Assembly: GCA_015061945.1 (NCBI GenBank)
Contig: SUVP01000004.1
Span: 62,001-126,000 of the forward strand
Direction: 5' to 3'
DNA: 64,000 nt
Source of the DNA: Opitutales bacterium
GTDB lineage: Bacteria; Verrucomicrobiota; Verrucomicrobiia; Opitutales; Intestinicryptomonadaceae
Numbering within the stretch: position 1 is the stretch's first letter; each line of letters opens with the position of its first letter. Of the stretch, positions 38,555 through 62,151 are shown one piece after another. Position numbers and translations under genes: made by a program. The notes below the pieces were generated by a model that saw only the letters and a program-made list of their open reading frames with translations, was not told the origin of the DNA and did no database searches.

Positions 38555-40255
38555 TTACAAATTGATTGTATCGTTCGACATCACTCTGTCTTGCTCTTCC
38601 ATATAGTCCGACAAAGCACCAGCATTTTTTACGTCGATAAGGGTATCGATTTCTTTCATAATCTTTTCACGATTATTTGTGAAAATAAATCTGTCGCTAC
38701 CCAAGCTCTTTCTCGCATCAACTACAAGCTCGCGTGGAGGGCGACGCATACCGAGCAAACGCACAATATGTTTGTCGAGATTAGTAGAATTACCTTGACG
38801 AATATCGAGTTGAACAAGGCGGGTCAACGCAAGTTGGTGACGTGGGAAACGTTCCACCGCATTTTCAAGAAGTTTTTGTGCAAATGAACGTGCACCAAGA
38901 CCATCGAGACGTCTCGCAGTTGCGACAAGGATTCTCGGAGTTGCTGTATTGCGATTCAAAACATCGGCAATAAGAATATCAGCCATATTTACATTACCTG
39001 TTGCGTAATACGATATTGCACGCAAGCAACCCAATACGTCTTCATAACGCTTAATCCAAATAGGCTTACTTTTATATATTTCTTCTGAAAACTTTACAGC
39101 ACCTTGATAATCTCCTGTTGTAATCATCGTTTCAAGAAGTAGCAAACAATACGCACCTATCGGGAAATTGTTTTGGATTGCTATATCATAAACTCTGCGA
39201 ACAAGCTTCATATCGCCATTATCTGCTGCATAATTGCCCAACAAAAGCATTGCCGAGTTTTCGTTTGAGTACTGTTTAAAGATTGCTTCAATAGCATCTT
39301 TAACACCCTGTTTGTCGCCAGACTTGCCTTGCAAATTGATGTATTCAAGGCGTTGTTCAATAGAAAATGGATTTTCAATCGAACGCAACATCGAGTATTG
39401 GCGAGCTTTCTCAAAGTCTCCCATTACAGTATAATAATTTACCAAGAGGGCGTACAATGGTTCTTTGCTCGACGCCAAGTCAAAATTATCGGCGATAATT
39501 TTTATAGCACCGTCGCGATTGCCTTGTTCCCATTCATTCTTCGAAAGACGCAAGATTCCAGGGAGAGTCTTGTCCAACTTGTACTTAACCAAGTATTCTT
39601 TCGATTTCTCAAAATTGCCGTGCATAGCATAGACAGACGATACCGACATCGCTAAGTATGCGATAACCTCGCCATTCTTTAAATCACCAGTTGCGAGAAG
39701 TTTTTCAGCAACAGTGATAAGACGTTTATCTTCAGTTTGGTCGATAAGCGTACGCATATAAAGTCTGATAAACTGGGTATCATCCTTTGCATACAACAGA
39801 CTGTTTTCCATTGTATTCAATGCCAAGTCGGGACGCTTAAAGAATCCGGACAAATAAAATTCAGAAAGCATCAATACACCTTTTACGTTTGCAGGTGAGC
39901 GTCCAACGCCAAACGCCAAGTTCATATATGCTTCACGCCATTTACGTTCTTTAATGCACTCTTCAGCTTTTGCGATATTGTAATCGCCCATCGCTGTCCT
40001 TATTTCTTTTCGCTTAAATGGGAAAACAATAGCGTCGGAAAATTTCATTTCTTCATATTCTCGCACATACTTAAAGAACGCATAAATGAAGAAAGTTAGT
40101 GCAAACCAACCTGCACACATCAGAGCAACCAGCATAATCATCACTCTCGACCAAACTATTTTTACCGACCAAGTGCCGTTAGGTGCTAATGTTCTACGCA
40201 ACATACCCAAAAAAATTGGATAAGAATTACTATTAACGCTTTCTTCTTGACTCAT
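38555..40255 (-). CDS. TPR-repeat membrane protein
   Basis: The 566-residue protein has a cytoplasmic N-terminus of about 35 residues and one TM helix (about 33-58, MIMLVALMCAGWFALTFFIY). A long helical TPR-like region fills the rest, for example PANVKGVLMLSEFYLSGFFK and EKARQYSMLRSIENPFSIEQ. There is no enzymatic motif. Such proteins scaffold complexes at the periplasmic face. A strong promoter with a perfect TATAAT precedes it. Partners are unknown; the neighbours are RecO-like (convergent) and a beta-barrel (divergent). Confidence 0.8.
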   Translation of the reverse strand: MSQEESVNSNSYPIFLGMLRRTLAPNGTWSVKIVWSRVMIMLVALMCAGWFALTFFIYAFFKYVREYEEMKFSDAIVFPFKRKEIRTAMGDYNIAKAEECIKERKWREAYMNLAFGVGRSPANVKGVLMLSEFYLSGFFKRPDLALNTMENSLLYAKDDTQFIRLYMRTLIDQTEDKRLITVAEKLLATGDLKNGEVIAYLAMSVSSVYAMHGNFEKSKEYLVKYKLDKTLPGILRLSKNEWEQGNRDGAIKIIADNFDLASSKEPLYALLVNYYTVMGDFEKARQYSMLRSIENPFSIEQRLEYINLQGKSGDKQGVKDAIEAIFKQYSNENSAMLLLGNYAADNGDMKLVRRVYDIAIQNNFPIGAYCLLLLETMITTGDYQGAVKFSEEIYKSKPIWIKRYEDVLGCLRAISYYATGNVNMADILIADVLNRNTATPRILVATARRLDGLGARSFAQKLLENAVERFPRHQLALTRLVQLDIRQGNSTNLDKHIVRLLGMRRPPRELVVDARKSLGSDRFIFTNNREKIMKEIDTLIDVKNAGALSDYMEEQDRVMSNDTINL

Positions 40256-40494: not shown

Positions 40495-41673
40495 ATGAAA
40501 AAAATAATAACATCATCAGTATTGCTCGCAGCAGCAGTTTCTGCAAGCGCAGCTCCACTTGTAACAATCGGCGACCAGCTCGACCTTTTCTTTAAAGGTG
40601 CAGTCATCGGTAAATGGGATAGCAATATCACATATACAAGCAATAAGGACAAACAACTTAACGACTATTCTTCAGTTTTCCGCCTCGGTGCAGAAGCAGA
40701 TTATGGTCGTAATAGCAAGTTCAAGGCTAACGTAAAGTTCTATGAAGACCTCACACGTTATGCAGACAAAAAACAATTTAATTCTAACCTCGCACACGTT
40801 GCAGCAAACGTAAGCTACACAGAAGCTAACTACTCTGTTAAGGGTGTTTTCTCATTCGACCAATGCTTCCAAAATACATCAACAACTATGGAAGCTAACC
40901 AAAATGGTGACCTCGTTCGTTTCAACAACTGGTTGGCAGGTGCAGAAGGTACATACGACTTCTCTGAAAAACTCTTTGGCGAACTCGGTGTAAACTGGCA
41001 CCGCACAGAATACCTCGGCGACTGGAGCGATTTGTACGCAGATAATGATGTATACTCAGTTCCTGTATCACTTCTTTACAAAGTTACACAAAAGATTTCT
41101 GTTGGTCTTACATACCAATACCGCTATACAGAATTCTCTGGTGGTCAAGATACCTATAAAACTCTCTATGGTACGGAACGTGATGACCACTTTGGTGGCG
41201 TAACAGTTCGTGGCGACATCCTCCCAAAACTCAACGTTTCTGCATACGCTGGTATCACATATCGTGATATTAAAGACGCAGCAGAAAGCGATGATGAAAC
41301 AACATTTGCTCTTCGTGCAACACTCTCATACGAACTCACAGAAAAGATTGGTTTGTTCGCAACAGGTAAACGTGACTTCGGAAACGGTGCATCACGTCAA
41401 AGCTCAGTTGACACAGGTTGCGAAGTCGGTGCTAACTATATGATGAACCAATTTGTAATGTTCACAACATCGTTTGCATACACTTACACAGACTATATGG
41501 CAGGTTATGACCGTGAAGACGATGAATTCATCGCACGTATCGGTGTATCATACAAGCCAAACAAGTTCCTCACACTCGGAGCTAACTACCGCTACCTCGA
41601 CAATTCATCGAGCGTTGCATCAGCAAGCTATATGCAACACTTGGTTGATATCTCGGTATCTGTTAAGTACTAA
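40495..41673 (+). CDS. Outer-membrane beta-barrel protein
   Basis: The 392-residue protein has a signal peptide (MKKIITSSVLLAAAVSASAA). Alternating beta strands run throughout, rich in Tyr, Phe and acidic residues (FRLGAEADYGRNSKFKANVK, VGLTYQYRYTEFSGG). The C-terminus VDISVSVKY ends on an aromatic residue, the usual outer-membrane insertion signal. Its rather uniform codon choice (ATC, GCA, CTC) suggests high expression. It may be a porin or structural barrel. The long 5' leader region (240 bases to the divergent gene) holds no other gene. A terminator follows. Confidence 0.85.
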   Translation: MKKIITSSVLLAAAVSASAAPLVTIGDQLDLFFKGAVIGKWDSNITYTSNKDKQLNDYSSVFRLGAEADYGRNSKFKANVKFYEDLTRYADKKQFNSNLAHVAANVSYTEANYSVKGVFSFDQCFQNTSTTMEANQNGDLVRFNNWLAGAEGTYDFSEKLFGELGVNWHRTEYLGDWSDLYADNDVYSVPVSLLYKVTQKISVGLTYQYRYTEFSGGQDTYKTLYGTERDDHFGGVTVRGDILPKLNVSAYAGITYRDIKDAAESDDETTFALRATLSYELTEKIGLFATGKRDFGNGASRQSSVDTGCEVGANYMMNQFVMFTTSFAYTYTDYMAGYDREDDEFIARIGVSYKPNKFLTLGANYRYLDNSSSVASASYMQHLVDISVSVKY

Positions 41674-41760: not shown

Positions 41761-42525
41761 TTAAATCTCAAGAATTGTCGACTCACATAGCGGAGAGACA
41801 ATTTCTATGCGTTCTTTTATTTCTCCGACATCGGCGAGCAAGTCGGCAATATGGCTTGTGCTGTTGCACTCTCTTGAGATATGAGCCAAGTAGATTTTCT
41901 CGATAGAATCCAAAGAAAGCTCTTTAATAATCTCGATTGCATCAGAGTTAGAAAGGTGTCCGTGGCTTGATATGATACGTCGTTTCAGATTGTACGGACG
42001 CGATGAATTTTCGAGCATACGTGGACAATAATTGCTTTCCAGCACAAGAATATTTGCACGCTTTGCCATATCTTTTACCAAATGCGTAGCTTTCCCCAAG
42101 TCAGTCATCCAAACGACATTTTTCCCATTTAGCGAAAAGCTATAGCCGACAGAGTCGCTCGTATCATGTGGGACAGAAAACGCACAAACCTCTATCCCCT
42201 TAAAATCAAACGGATAGCCATTTTCAAAGTGTGCCCATAAAAGTTTTTTAGTTGGAGAATCGAGATGAATAATAGATTCGGCAGTGAGCCTGTTTGCGAA
42301 AATTTTAGTCCGTTTATTTGCGAAATATTTTAACGATTTACGATGGTCAAGATGCTCATGCGTAATAAAAATCGCATCAATATCATCTAATTGAAGGGAA
42401 CGTTTTGCAAGGTATGCCTCAATTTTTTTTATACCGATACCAACATCAATAAGTATATTTACGCCATCGTGTTCAAGATACGCACAGTTCCCTGCACTCG
42501 ACGTTTCTATAATTTGAAAAAACAT
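41761..42525 (-). CDS. MBL-fold metallohydrolase (YycJ/WalJ-like)
   Basis: The 254-residue metallo-beta-lactamase-fold protein carries the dinuclear metal motif FITHEHLDHRKSL (HxHxDH, about 53-65), His in FSVPHDTSDSVGYSF, and later LESNYCPRML and SSHGHLSNSDAIEI. The N-terminus IIETSSAGNCAYLEHDG matches YycJ/WalJ-type proteins linked to DNA processing. Its ATG overlaps the stop of the GH32-like gene by one base (TAATG), so the two are translationally coupled despite unrelated roles. The exact substrate is unknown. Confidence 0.88.
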   Translation of the reverse strand: MFFQIIETSSAGNCAYLEHDGVNILIDVGIGIKKIEAYLAKRSLQLDDIDAIFITHEHLDHRKSLKYFANKRTKIFANRLTAESIIHLDSPTKKLLWAHFENGYPFDFKGIEVCAFSVPHDTSDSVGYSFSLNGKNVVWMTDLGKATHLVKDMAKRANILVLESNYCPRMLENSSRPYNLKRRIISSHGHLSNSDAIEIIKELSLDSIEKIYLAHISRECNSTSHIADLLADVGEIKERIEIVSPLCESTILEI

Positions 42526-44267
42526 TATTGCTGACTTTCCGTTTGTTCAGTTTTTTTAGCAGATTCTTTTGCTTTTTCTTCTTGTTTTTTCAGAGCTTCC
42601 AAATATCTGCGGGCAAAATCACCACGTTGAGCTTGGGTTGTCGCTAAAATCGGAATACGCGAAACTTTATCAAGATATATACGCCCCGTTGCCCCGATTT
42701 TTATTTGCTGTTCTGGATTTATAAAAGAGTCGCCAATGATAGCCACAGCCGAGCCATCGAGAAAGAGAGTTTCAATTAAATACGAATCGACAAACATCAT
42801 AACGTCGTGAAAGCCCAGTGAGAGTGGGTCTGGCAAAGGTTGAGTACTTTTGACATCCTCAATGCGACGGAAAATAAACGATTGATATTTTTTGCTATAA
42901 TCGAAACGCAAAACTCCCGCACCAAGACAGAATGTATCAATTTGAGTTGTATCGAACGTAAAAGTTAGTGCGAAATTATTTCCAGTTGCGTCAGGCAACG
43001 TAAATATATTCGATTGAAAATCCATATGCGAAACGCCCAACGCATCCTCTGCTTCGCCGAAATATTCGACTATTTCAGGCAACAAGCCAACACGCAAACG
43101 CAAACCTTCCCTTGCATCGACAAGCCTCATCTCGTACGGCAAGCCCATAACATTCGTAAACGACTGCCCTACATCACGCAACAAGCTCGGTGGTTGTGCA
43201 ATAAACGGCACAGCAAGATTTCTACCTTTTGGTGCGTTTCTAAAAAACTTCAATCCGTAAACATCGCCATAGAAAATGCGAAGCATATTAGGCGAGATAG
43301 GTTTAAATTTTTCGCCGTCAAAATCGCCAACAATATAGCTTCCGTCAAAATTTGTGATTAAATATTTTGTCGATACCGTCGAGCTTGAGAGAATAATTTT
43401 ATGAAGTGTAGGTGCATAAAGTTTCACATCAAACCTATCTGAATGAATCCAATCCTTAAGATCTTTTGAAGTAAAAATCCCAGTACCATTGTCGACTTCG
43501 CCCAATGCTACCCAAACTTTTTTATCGTCATCGTAAAAAATATCGGGAGAAGATTTCTTTCCTGCGAGTGCCGGAATATCGCCTTTCCATTCGATAGATT
43601 CCAAGTCTTGCGAGATACCATATCTGACAGAACCATCTGAAAAACGCCATAAAATATGAACGCCATCGTCGGTGGCAACTGCTGAACCACCTGTTGGATA
43701 CAAGAAAGTTTTGCCGTCAAAGGTAGGTATATAAATCGGCTTGCGATAAAACCATTTTGTCAAATCATCGCTAACTGCGTGGCTCACAAAATATGGACCA
43801 CGTGGATTCATCGCATACGGATTATTCAAAAAGAAGCAGTGCCATTTCCCGTTTCGATAAAACATACCGCACGATTCCCCCATACAACCTTCTTTTGCAG
43901 TCAAGTGGAAAAGTGGGCGAGCTCGGTTTGTATATGGCTTTGTCCATGCTGGATTATCTGTTTGCGTAATCGACGGCTCTTTCTTCAAATCGCCATATTT
44001 TATAGTAATCTCTTTGCCCTTGTATGCCGAGACATTCACAGGTGCTCGCCAATTCGGCTTGCTATCCGTCAATAGTATCGACGACACAAAAATCGGAATT
44101 TTCTCATCATTTAAAATTTCAACCTTATGATATTTTTCATTCCCGTGCATAGGGAGCAAAATCCAATCTTTTTCGATTAGAAGTTTCATCTCGTTAATTA
44201 CATCTTTTTTATCAGATGCAAAAATACAGAGGGGCAACAATAAAATCAGTGCGAAAAATTTTCTCAT
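42525..44267 (-). CDS. Secreted GH32-like five-bladed beta-propeller protein with altered catalytic residues
   Basis: The 580-residue product starts at the ATG at 44267 (signal peptide MRKFFALILLLPLCIFA). The layout follows GH32 levanase/invertase: an N-terminal beta-propeller, here with HLTAKEGCMGESCGMFYRNG in place of the WMNDPNG motif, then SHAVSDDLTKWFYRKPIY. The third block is SSPDIFYDDDKKVWVALG where RDP is usual, and APTLHKI stands where the EC acid/base motif lies. A C-terminal sandwich (SNIFTLPDATGNNFALTFTF) and a charged Gln/Glu/Lys tail follow. The nucleophile Asp is Glu, and the other two catalytic residues appear lost. It may bind rather than cut glycan. Confidence 0.72.
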   Translation of the reverse strand: MRKFFALILLLPLCIFASDKKDVINEMKLLIEKDWILLPMHGNEKYHKVEILNDEKIPIFVSSILLTDSKPNWRAPVNVSAYKGKEITIKYGDLKKEPSITQTDNPAWTKPYTNRARPLFHLTAKEGCMGESCGMFYRNGKWHCFFLNNPYAMNPRGPYFVSHAVSDDLTKWFYRKPIYIPTFDGKTFLYPTGGSAVATDDGVHILWRFSDGSVRYGISQDLESIEWKGDIPALAGKKSSPDIFYDDDKKVWVALGEVDNGTGIFTSKDLKDWIHSDRFDVKLYAPTLHKIILSSSTVSTKYLITNFDGSYIVGDFDGEKFKPISPNMLRIFYGDVYGLKFFRNAPKGRNLAVPFIAQPPSLLRDVGQSFTNVMGLPYEMRLVDAREGLRLRVGLLPEIVEYFGEAEDALGVSHMDFQSNIFTLPDATGNNFALTFTFDTTQIDTFCLGAGVLRFDYSKKYQSFIFRRIEDVKSTQPLPDPLSLGFHDVMMFVDSYLIETLFLDGSAVAIIGDSFINPEQQIKIGATGRIYLDKVSRIPILATTQAQRGDFARRYLEALKKQEEKAKESAKKTEQTESQQ

Positions 44268-44425: not shown

Positions 44426-45208
44426 TTACCAATCTGGATGTGGTTTGCGAGAGTAAACCCACTTGTAGTAATCTGCAAGTTTAAGTTTTGATGCCGCTTC
44501 TTCGTCAAGGAATACTTTGACATCACGGTGCATTTGCAAAATCGAAGCTGGAATCATAGACGTTATCGGTCCTTCAATCATACCAGCGACAGCATCTGCT
44601 TTAGACTTACCATATGCGAGCAAAACAACTGTTTCCGATTCCATAATCGTGCCAATACCCATAGTCAAACAATGCGTTGGCACAGCCTCTGGATTCCCGT
44701 CAAAGAAACGTGCGTTATCTTCGATAGTTTCACGTGTAAGAGTCTTCATTCGTGTGCGAGATGACAATGACGATGTTGGCTCGTTAAAACCGATATGACC
44801 ATCGCTACCGATACCTAAAATTTGGAGTTCTACGCCACCTGACGCTTTGATTGCACGTTCATATTCTTCGCACGCAATCTTCGGGTTTTCAGCCATACCA
44901 TTTGGAATATGCGTATTTTCAAGCTCGATATCAATTTTATCGAAGAGATTTTCACGCATATAATATGCGTATGAATTTTTGTCATCTGCTGGCAAACCGT
45001 AGTATTCGTCGAGATTGAAAGATGACGCTTTTGCGAACGACACTTCGCCCTTCTTGTATTTTTCAATCAAATTTTCATAGAGTCCCAACGGAGTTCCGCC
45101 TGTTGCCAAACCGAGAACAATTCTGGGATTGCGTACTACTGCCGATGCGACAAAATCTGCCGCCGCCTGATTTGCCTGTTCTTTTGTGGGGTATATTATT
45201 ACTTCCAT
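44426..45208 (-). CDS. nagB: Glucosamine-6-phosphate deaminase NagB
   Basis: The 260-residue isomerase/deaminase converts glucosamine-6-P to fructose-6-P plus ammonia. Conserved blocks are LGLATGGTPLGLYENLIEKY, FNLDEYYGLPADDKNSYAYY (catalytic Asp), LGIGSDGHIGFNEPTSS (Asp and His) and TMGIGTIMESETVVLLAYGK. Length is normal. It starts 10 bases before the stop of the PIG-L deacetylase gene, so the two are coupled. The pair suggests removal of the acetyl group from a GlcNAc derivative and entry into glycolysis. Confidence 0.96.
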   Translation of the reverse strand: MEVIIYPTKEQANQAAADFVASAVVRNPRIVLGLATGGTPLGLYENLIEKYKKGEVSFAKASSFNLDEYYGLPADDKNSYAYYMRENLFDKIDIELENTHIPNGMAENPKIACEEYERAIKASGGVELQILGIGSDGHIGFNEPTSSLSSRTRMKTLTRETIEDNARFFDGNPEAVPTHCLTMGIGTIMESETVVLLAYGKSKADAVAGMIEGPITSMIPASILQMHRDVKVFLDEEAASKLKLADYYKWVYSRKPHPDW

Positions 45209-46113
45209 AGTTGTGTTAAGAGTTCTGCAACTGAATCATTTGCTGTTAAAACTTTTGAGGTAAATGCACTTTTGTAGATCTTACCGTTTTTTTCAAGCAC
45301 ACGGTATATCTGACCAAACTGGAACGACGGAGCATCGCCACCTTGCCCTCCGACAATTTCTGCACCACGACGCACGTTGTCGGTATAGTATGCTGGAAGA
45401 TTGAGGTGGTACGGGTTGCGTTCAACTTCTTTTGTATGGCACGAAAGAGCACCAATCTGAGCCGACAAATGTCCGTCCGAGACTTCAATCAACAAGTTTG
45501 GTGTCTGCATTGCTTGCCAAAGTTCTGCTTCAATTCTTACGCCTTTCCACGCCGCTTTTGCAAGTGCGTCAGACACGAGCATCGATGTCCCGATATGCGT
45601 TTTATTCCAGTCATCAATATGCGGAGCAATAATCACTGCTGGCTTCATTTTTTCGATGAGAGCTACAGTTTTATCAACGCACTCCGACCAATATTTTTTG
45701 TCGGTTCTCGCCTTTGGATTGATTCTATCGAATGCGAGCTTTGCAATCTTCCAACCCATAAAATTGCAAGCGTCTTTCAGCTCAGCCAAGCGACCTTTTC
45801 TGCGTGCGACATTTGAACCGAGTGTTACCGCAACATCGACAATTTCAAAACCGCATTCTGTCATAAAACGGACAGCGAGCGAGTTCATACATTCGTCATC
45901 GGGGTGTGGAGCAAAAACCAGCACACGTGGCGTCAAACCCAATTTCTTAATTTTCGAGTGAAGAGCTTTTTTATCTGAATCGGATATGCGAAGTTCATTT
46001 GAATCGCACAAATTCTTTCCTTCGCCGAAGCCTGCCGACTTCCCCATAGGAACTTTTCGTGCGTTCTGAAAAAGCTTTCTATACGATTTTACAAACTCAA
46101 TGTATGTTTTCAT
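45199..46113 (-). CDS. PIG-L family de-N-acetylase
   Basis: The 304-residue zinc deacetylase has LVFAPHPDDECMNSLAVRFM (AHPDDE-type motif, about 80-99). The second metal motif is APHIDDWNKTHIG, and YHLNLPAYYTDNVRRG resembles the substrate region. The family removes acetyl from N-acetylglucosamine derivatives (GlcNAc-PI, bacillithiol precursors, chito-oligomers). No signal peptide is seen, so it should act in the cytoplasm. It is the first gene of a two-gene operon with nagB. In Bacteroidetes a NagB/PIG-L fusion protein exists, so the pairing here looks like the unfused form. Confidence 0.87.
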   Translation of the reverse strand: MKTYIEFVKSYRKLFQNARKVPMGKSAGFGEGKNLCDSNELRISDSDKKALHSKIKKLGLTPRVLVFAPHPDDECMNSLAVRFMTECGFEIVDVAVTLGSNVARRKGRLAELKDACNFMGWKIAKLAFDRINPKARTDKKYWSECVDKTVALIEKMKPAVIIAPHIDDWNKTHIGTSMLVSDALAKAAWKGVRIEAELWQAMQTPNLLIEVSDGHLSAQIGALSCHTKEVERNPYHLNLPAYYTDNVRRGAEIVGGQGGDAPSFQFGQIYRVLEKNGKIYKSAFTSKVLTANDSVAELLTQLWK

Positions 46114-61197: not shown

Positions 61198-62151
61198 TTA
61201 TTTTCCAATCAAACTTATCCCGATATTAAGCCAAAGTGGAAGAGTGAAGATTGCAACAATACACGTTAGTAATGTTATGTAGACTGCAATTTTGGGGTGT
61301 CCACCAAAGTGTTTTGCAAGCACTGCCGACATCACTCCACACGGAGATAACGCTTGCAACATCAACAAAATTTTCAACGTATGGTCGATTGGCAAAAGCC
61401 ATGCCGATATTATAAAACACGCTGGCAAAATAAACATTCGCATCGCAACTGCAACCGACAAAATTTTTATCGAGAATTTTTCACGTTCGAGCATATCGTA
61501 CAAGAGCGTTCCAAATATCATCAAATTAAGTGGAACAGCAATCCCGCCAGCGAACTTGAGCAACGTTTTGACAAAGTCTGGAATATAGTGCGACAAACCT
61601 GTCCACACGAGAATCAATGCGAGAAAAACCGACCACACTGGACCTCGCGATAAAAACGCAAACGACACTTTCTTCGCATTCGATATAAGCAAGAATCCAA
61701 GCGACCAATAAATCAAGTCGCAACCGACATTGTGTGTGATGAGAATTCCCATCATATCACCTCCGCCATTTGCAAATAAAATTGCGACGAGTGCGATTAG
61801 AAAAAATCCGTAATTTTGAGCTCCGACTGTTACAACAAATGTCCGCAATCCATTACCAAGCCGAAGTCCGACAAGCCAACCAGCCACCCACGCACAACAC
61901 AAGCTAATAAAAATACCCATACTGCCGAGGAATATTGTCATCAGCGAAAACTCGACACTTTCGAGTCTTTTGTTGTCCAAAAGGTTCGAGAGAATAAAGC
62001 ACGGTAGCGTAAGCTCTACTGCAATTTTCACGATTGAAGAATCGGCTTCGGGTTTAATCCACGAAAGCTTGCGAGCAAACCAGCCCATTGCAATCAATCC
62101 ATAGATTGGAAAGATTGCTCCGAACATTCCTAATGTAGATACATCGTTCAT
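61198..62151 (-). CDS. AEC family permease
   Basis: The 317-residue membrane protein of the auxin efflux carrier family has about 10 TM helices, with FPIYGLIAMGWFARKLSWIK and ELTLPCFILSNLLDNKRLES in the N-terminal half. The C-terminal half has MRMFILPACFIISAWLLPID and LQALSPCGVMSAVLAKHFGG, the typical broken-helix segment. Members export or import organic acids or amino acids. Its ATG lies immediately after the T-run of the esterase terminator, so its expression may depend on readthrough or an overlapping promoter. Confidence 0.9.
   Translation of the reverse strand: MNDVSTLGMFGAIFPIYGLIAMGWFARKLSWIKPEADSSIVKIAVELTLPCFILSNLLDNKRLESVEFSLMTIFLGSMGIFISLCCAWVAGWLVGLRLGNGLRTFVVTVGAQNYGFFLIALVAILFANGGGDMMGILITHNVGCDLIYWSLGFLLISNAKKVSFAFLSRGPVWSVFLALILVWTGLSHYIPDFVKTLLKFAGGIAVPLNLMIFGTLLYDMLEREKFSIKILSVAVAMRMFILPACFIISAWLLPIDHTLKILLMLQALSPCGVMSAVLAKHFGGHPKIAVYITLLTCIVAIFTLPLWLNIGISLIGK

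Follow-up and report, generated by a model that had tools for sequence, protein, structure and literature searches.

The 64,000-nucleotide stretch analysed here (the window; positions 62,001 to 126,000 of contig SUVP01000004.1, assembly GCA_015061945.1, from an Opitutales bacterium) carries on its minus strand a gene (42525..44267) for a 580-residue protein related to glycoside hydrolase family 32 (GH32), in which the catalytic residues Asp, Asp and Glu are replaced by Glu131, Ser240 and Tyr284. We propose, with a probability of roughly 0.7, that this protein is an exported, non-catalytic pseudo-glycoside hydrolase that has been kept for binding or scaffolding. As 11 related species have retained this disabled protein, its function is probably one other than cutting and so far undescribed. 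The fuller account, for which we see somewhat better than even odds, is that of a genus-wide exported family derived from GH32 in which catalysis was fully lost, a binding role was selected in the accessory domains, and the gene was paired with a WalJ-type metallo-beta-lactamase (MBL) fold gene.

Domain architecture and membership of GH32

The open reading frame (ORF) comprises 580 codons, from an ATG at 44267 to a TAA at 42527-42525; its product is termed P0001, residue numbers follow P0001, and coordinates refer to the minus strand unless stated otherwise. Residues 1–21 (MRKFFALILLLPLCIFASDKK; 44205..44267) resemble a Sec-type signal peptide, as judged by eye from the translation, a reading supported by low values of the predicted local distance difference test (pLDDT) at residues 1–20 and by similar hydrophobic N-termini in the orthologues, and P0001 is predicted to be exported. 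This segment is followed by an N-terminal beta-sandwich domain (residues 22–112; 43932..44204) that is weakly DUF4980-like (expect value (E) 0.039, a match below the cut-off), by a propeller region (residues 113–396; 43080..43931) that profile and model identify as homologous to the GH32 catalytic domain, and by a C-terminal beta-sandwich (residues 397–543; 42639..43079). The latter bears the clade motifs DALG, SNxFxxPDAxGN and GDSFxNPxQxIK.

The initial annotation of this sequence had claimed that the order of the GH32 blocks was kept, and this was borne out by a PF00251 (GH32N) match at residues 121–386 that spanned profile positions 1–300 of 307 (E 1.5e-17). Its score of 64.5 bits, relative to a curated cut-off of 22.1, places P0001 in GH32 by profile. 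Solved GH32 enzymes were likewise found as sequence matches, the top one being Schwanniomyces fructofuranosidase (E 2e-9). Structure prediction, which the initial annotation had proposed as a check, agreed: an AlphaFold2 model built from 19 family members had a mean pLDDT of 89.2 and a predicted template modelling score (pTM) of 0.85, and its top structural matches were levan fructotransferase, Thermotoga invertase and inulinase (Z 35–36 over 393–412 residues). Superposition of this predicted model on 4ffi, 4fff and 1uyp gave Z 36.1–36.2 over 393–408 residues with a root-mean-square deviation of 2.6–3.3 Å, and all 50 Foldseek matches listed were GH32-type enzymes by title. Membership of another propeller family (GH43, GH62 or GH130), which had been named as an outcome that would speak against the annotation, found no counterpart among the Pfam matches of P0001 up to E 1; GH32 profiles and structures were the matches.

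According to the model, the GH32 fold of P0001 takes in both the propeller and the C-terminal sandwich and is preceded by an extra N-terminal sandwich. This extra domain was well predicted when modelled alone by AlphaFold (pLDDT 93), but had weak fold matches only: the highest Z was 6.3, reached jointly by the N-terminal portion of a Bifidobacterium GH32 protein (6nob), with CBM35-like and other sandwich folds slightly below. Since these fold matches were weak, we assigned the N-terminal domain no function.

Loss of the active site

P0001 shares with the GH32 beta-fructosidases (invertases, inulinases and levanases; PF00251) the propeller and C-terminal sandwich, the block order and the scaffold residues, but lacks their catalytic Asp/Asp/Glu, along with the majority of the other conserved residues of the active site. 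In the family alignment, P0001 reads GCMGESCG at WMNDPNG (the NDPNG site itself being GESCG, residues 130–134, 43866..43880, with the nucleophile Asp changed to Glu131), KKSSPDI at RDP (SSP, residues 239–241, 43545..43553) and LYAPT at the EC acid/base motif (YA, residues 284–285, 43413..43418). The motif readings GCMGESCG, SSP and APT of the initial annotation were therefore correct. The corresponding catalytic columns are D, D and E/D in 41 homologues, and no complete acid set was present at the old site in the alignment, so that the other outcome named as contrary, intact acids at the site, was not seen either.

Whether the substitutions are conserved in orthologues had been left as a check, and ten further genomes of the genus proved to carry diverged disabled copies. 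Among the resulting 11 disabled copies, the Asp nucleophile was lost in nine, Arg239 and the transition-state Asp240 of RDP in all 11, and the acid/base Glu284 in ten; no copy retained more than one of the catalytic three, and residual activity in these copies is unlikely. The loss extended beyond the triad. Defining conserved columns as those at least 85% conserved in intact homologues, we found that NDPNG, RDP, EC, a Gln (147), a Trp (161), a Ser (193) and a Tyr-Ala pair (337–338) had been erased, while R117, H121, G127, W172, W252, G314, F316, F321 and P377 (scaffold columns) were invariant in 11/11.

This wider erosion bears on the idea that P0001 is a fructan lectin whose old −1 subsite holds fructose without cleaving it. 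Such a role would fit the retained GH32 fold of the predicted model, and GH32 enzymes with single catalytic-residue mutations have been crystallised with bound sugar, according to PDB titles. Beyond the triad, the family-conserved columns at P0001 positions 130, 133, 147, 161, 193, 239, 337 and 355 were also lost. Several of these columns presumably contact sugar in GH32 structures. Because the other conserved residues of the site have gone as well, binding of fructose or fructan by the old site is unlikely, and we give the lectin role only a small chance.

Distribution and single origin of the disabled clade

Homologues were collected by searches of genomes of the taxonomic family, order and phylum, and were found in 17 of 19 family genomes; a scan of a contig collection with P0001 returned no relatives. 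Of the 13 genomes of the genus that could be read, 11 had a disabled copy, the window's own included, and the remaining two (G006 and G011) hold intact copies, so that the genus relatives include GH32 enzymes that are intact by motif. One further genome (G008), in which not even ribosomal protein S12 yielded a candidate, was counted as unreadable, not as a loss. The intact homologues, 23 full-length proteins from the family and order and 18 from the phylum, carried an acidic residue at each of the three catalytic positions (D/D/E in 38 and D/D/D in 3, n = 41). Outside the genus (273 order and 387 phylum genomes), no match came near the disabled-clade score: the best reached 283 bits (G003, same family) vs 705–857 bits for nine full-length disabled members, values that are high by construction because the same nine members built the profile.

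A tree of 34 proteins was computed after removal of the three motif regions and exclusion of L016 and L017, whose ends are cut by contig ends. All 11 disabled copies fell on one side of a branch with support of 100/99, one change sufficed in 100% of bootstrap trees, and the disabled clade was nested inside intact genus members. With intact outgroups around a nested disabled clade, the active site reads as having been lost once, within the genus; L011 sits on a long branch, and its exact place within the disabled clade is unsure. The view of P0001 as a GH32-like protein with a disabled active site, put forward in the initial annotation, is thus backed by profile, fold, orthologue conservation and phylogeny.

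The distribution also speaks to the suggestion that the disabled protein serves an active GH32 paralogue as its regulatory or targeting partner, for which there is precedent in plants (PMC3713406). Plant defective invertases, such as tobacco Nin88, which has been reported to activate cell-wall invertases indirectly (PMC3713406), are exported GH32 proteins with impaired catalysis and a supposed regulatory role, and are the nearest described functional parallel to P0001. According to a review, however, their catalytic triad is always spared, and substrate-binding residues have been lost instead (PMC3713406), whereas here the triad itself was lost, in bacteria, and P0001 accordingly falls outside the plant-type definition. 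Three genomes (G015, G017 and G018) hold an intact paralogue in addition to the disabled copy, but our searches found no intact GH32 in the other eight of 11, including the window's own (several of these are draft assemblies), so that a partner role is possible for those three genomes only. As a general explanation it is a slender prospect.

Altered constraint in the disabled clade

The initial annotation had offered two interpretations, a glycan-binding pseudoenzyme or an enzyme with a new mechanism. As regards a pseudoenzyme the first has gained support, with glycan binding as a possible role; the second is disfavoured. In the second, other pocket residues would have taken over catalysis after loss of the Asp/Asp/Glu triad, and the intact fold of the predicted model, the Glu or Asp at the nucleophile column of 5/11 disabled copies and a Cys133 common to P0001, L002 and L003 could be cited in its favour, as opposed to the loss of Arg239 and Asp240 in every copy and of the acid/base Glu in all but one. 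We therefore compared column conservation across the disabled clade, taking the literature-defined motif columns as NDPNG, RDP and EC (PMC11311677) and FYA from the FYASK motif (PMC3713406). Mean pairwise identity was 0.25 in these motif columns vs 0.57 in other family-conserved columns (Mann-Whitney p 0.0005), and was 0.17 in a list of 14 pocket columns that was partly post hoc, being drawn up after the lost columns had been seen. Only three propeller columns were acidic in at least nine of the 11 disabled copies; two of these (D168 and D317) are acidic in intact members too and the third (258) is Val in P0001, and thus no shared replacement catalyst is visible. No newly conserved acidic propeller column that might replace the lost catalytic acids was found among the 11 copies. 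As shared new chemistry should leave a shared set of residues, the variation of the pocket from member to member, together with the lack of a new conserved acidic column, counts against a new mechanism, which we regard as very unlikely for the clade, although a narrower form of it may be private to the P0001-L002-L003 subclade.

Reading frames were open in all disabled copies, with no frame breaks. For the two closest disabled pairs with finite dS, the Nei-Gojobori ratios of nonsynonymous to synonymous change (dN/dS) were 0.34/2.01 (~0.17) and 0.44/2.43 (~0.18), values that are rough, with dS near saturation, and third-position change exceeded first- and second-position change in every pair compared. 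Purifying selection on the disabled copies is visible. Least credible of the alternatives is a decaying gene nearing loss and kept only by its position before the MBL gene, since a propeller relaxed relative to intact members and an MBL start that, at almost every locus, overlaps the stop or comes shortly after it are outweighed by intact long frames in 11 lineages at 25–44% identity to P0001, dN/dS well under 1, retained signal-like N-termini, invariant scaffold residues and conserved C-terminal motifs.

The distribution of identity among domains differed between intact and disabled members. The intact pair L004-L006 was 65% identical in the propeller vs 35–36% in the flanking domains, whereas disabled pairs averaged 32% in the propeller, 30% in the N-terminal and 29% in the C-terminal domain. 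Judged by these identities, constraint in the disabled clade has shifted away from the propeller and towards the sandwich domains on either side of it. The C-terminal motifs DALG, NxFxxPDAxGN and GDSFxNPxQ were common to the disabled copies and to the intact L004 and L006, and absent from more distant members; the motifs are therefore older than the catalytic loss, and outlived it.

Pairing with a YycJ/WalJ-type gene

Directly downstream lies a YycJ/WalJ-type MBL-fold gene (41761..42525, minus strand), the ATG of which overlaps the stop codon of the pseudo-GH32 gene by one base (TAATG; gap −1 nt). This overlap, already noted in the initial annotation, is real, and the adjacency is conserved in the genus: the MBL gene was the next downstream gene in all ten disabled-copy loci that no contig end interrupts. 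The gap measures −1 to +10 nt at nine of these loci and +45 nt in G015 (or +9 if a TTG start is used). In G014, each of the two genes sits at the end of its own contig, an arrangement compatible with this order. The MBL gene is also the neighbour of the intact copy in G006, and by parsimony the pairing is therefore older than the catalytic loss; the intact GH32 gene of G011 lies away from the MBL gene, which there follows purD. No GH32-like ORF was found within the flanks retrieved for 80 MBL loci outside the genus.

The MBL protein matched Lactamase_B_2 (E 1.8e-18) and groups with YycJ/WalJ: a homologue from Bacillus glycinifermentans, 35% identical, follows ORFs that read by eye as walR, walK, yycH and yycI. 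A scan with the MBL alignment named only loci outside the genus, the best at 40% identity and the top ones mostly from Opitutae/Verrucomicrobiota, and no solved structure matched the MBL profile at E 1e-10.

Further downstream are a convergent outer-membrane beta-barrel gene (40495..41673, plus strand) and a TPR membrane-protein gene (38555..40255, minus strand), a neighbourhood shared by most genus members: both genes accompany the pair in eight of 11 genomes, with G014 judged from its MBL contig. The names EpsL-like (beta-barrel gene) and PrsT-like (TPR gene) scored far below the NCBIfam cut-offs and were not used. The genes upstream of pseudo-GH32 were not conserved. In the window, nagB and a PIG-L-type deacetylase gene (44426-46113, minus strand), which overlap by 10 bases, lie just upstream, and this pair was not found beside the other pseudo-GH32 copies.

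Proposed function and relation to known systems

Comparison of the loci suggests that an ordinary GH32 gene came to lie beside, and upstream of, a yycJ/walJ-type MBL gene in an ancestor within the genus, and that the GH32 gene in this position would then have lost its whole active site once. Selection has kept the fold, the N- and C-terminal sandwiches and the reading frame in 11 species. A protein of the P0001 type would no longer cut fructans and would work by binding, with the remodelled C-terminal sandwich and the N-terminal domain contacting a polysaccharide or some other component, secreted or of the envelope, and with the propeller retained mainly as a scaffold. The spacing of the two genes suggests joint transcription and makes coupled translation probable; the MBL protein is presumably cytoplasmic.

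Several points weigh against a wholly non-catalytic binding protein. L011 keeps Glu-Cys at the acid/base site, L003 and L014 keep Asp131, and P0001, L002 and L005 have Glu at that position; the near-saturated dS leaves the measure of selection coarse; and the N-terminal domain resembles carbohydrate-binding modules too weakly (Z < 7, no Foldseek E below 0.001) for the likeness to count as evidence of glycan binding.

Outside GH32, the inactive GH28 proteins of leaf beetles are likewise glycoside hydrolase pseudoenzymes with physiological effects of their own (PMC6549527), but they belong to another fold and family and occur in insects, in multigene families beside active copies. We found no description of a bacterial GH32 pseudoenzyme clade in the open-access literature searched, and if our proposal is true, P0001 and its orthologues represent a class of GH32 pseudoenzyme of a kind undescribed in that literature. 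Annotation based on Pfam would name the pseudo-GH32 gene a fructosidase; as members of the disabled clade match Pfam and yet lack at least two catalytic residues, such annotation would predict fructan use too often in these bacteria. The genus also offers an evolutionary contrast between intact enzymes and one derived disabled clade, with an intact copy at the same gene pair in G006, and the shift of constraint from propeller to sandwiches makes it testable what a glycosidase fold serves after catalysis is lost.

Additional observations

Long low-complexity insertions were present in the propeller of two disabled copies, L014 (G012) and L015 (G016), which are proteins of ~740–760 residues. On contig 14 of G000, L025, L026 and L028 gave weak GH32N matches; by Pfam, these are propeller proteins of the GH43 or GH130 type (L025 being ambiguous between GH32N and GH43), which leaves pseudo-GH32 as the only clear GH32 relative in the window's genome. 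Three order-level GH32 homologues (L053, L054 and L058) had Asp-Cys instead of Glu-Cys at the acid/base motif with the other two catalytic Asp residues intact, and represent either a GH32 subgroup with a D-type acid/base or a second kind of change.
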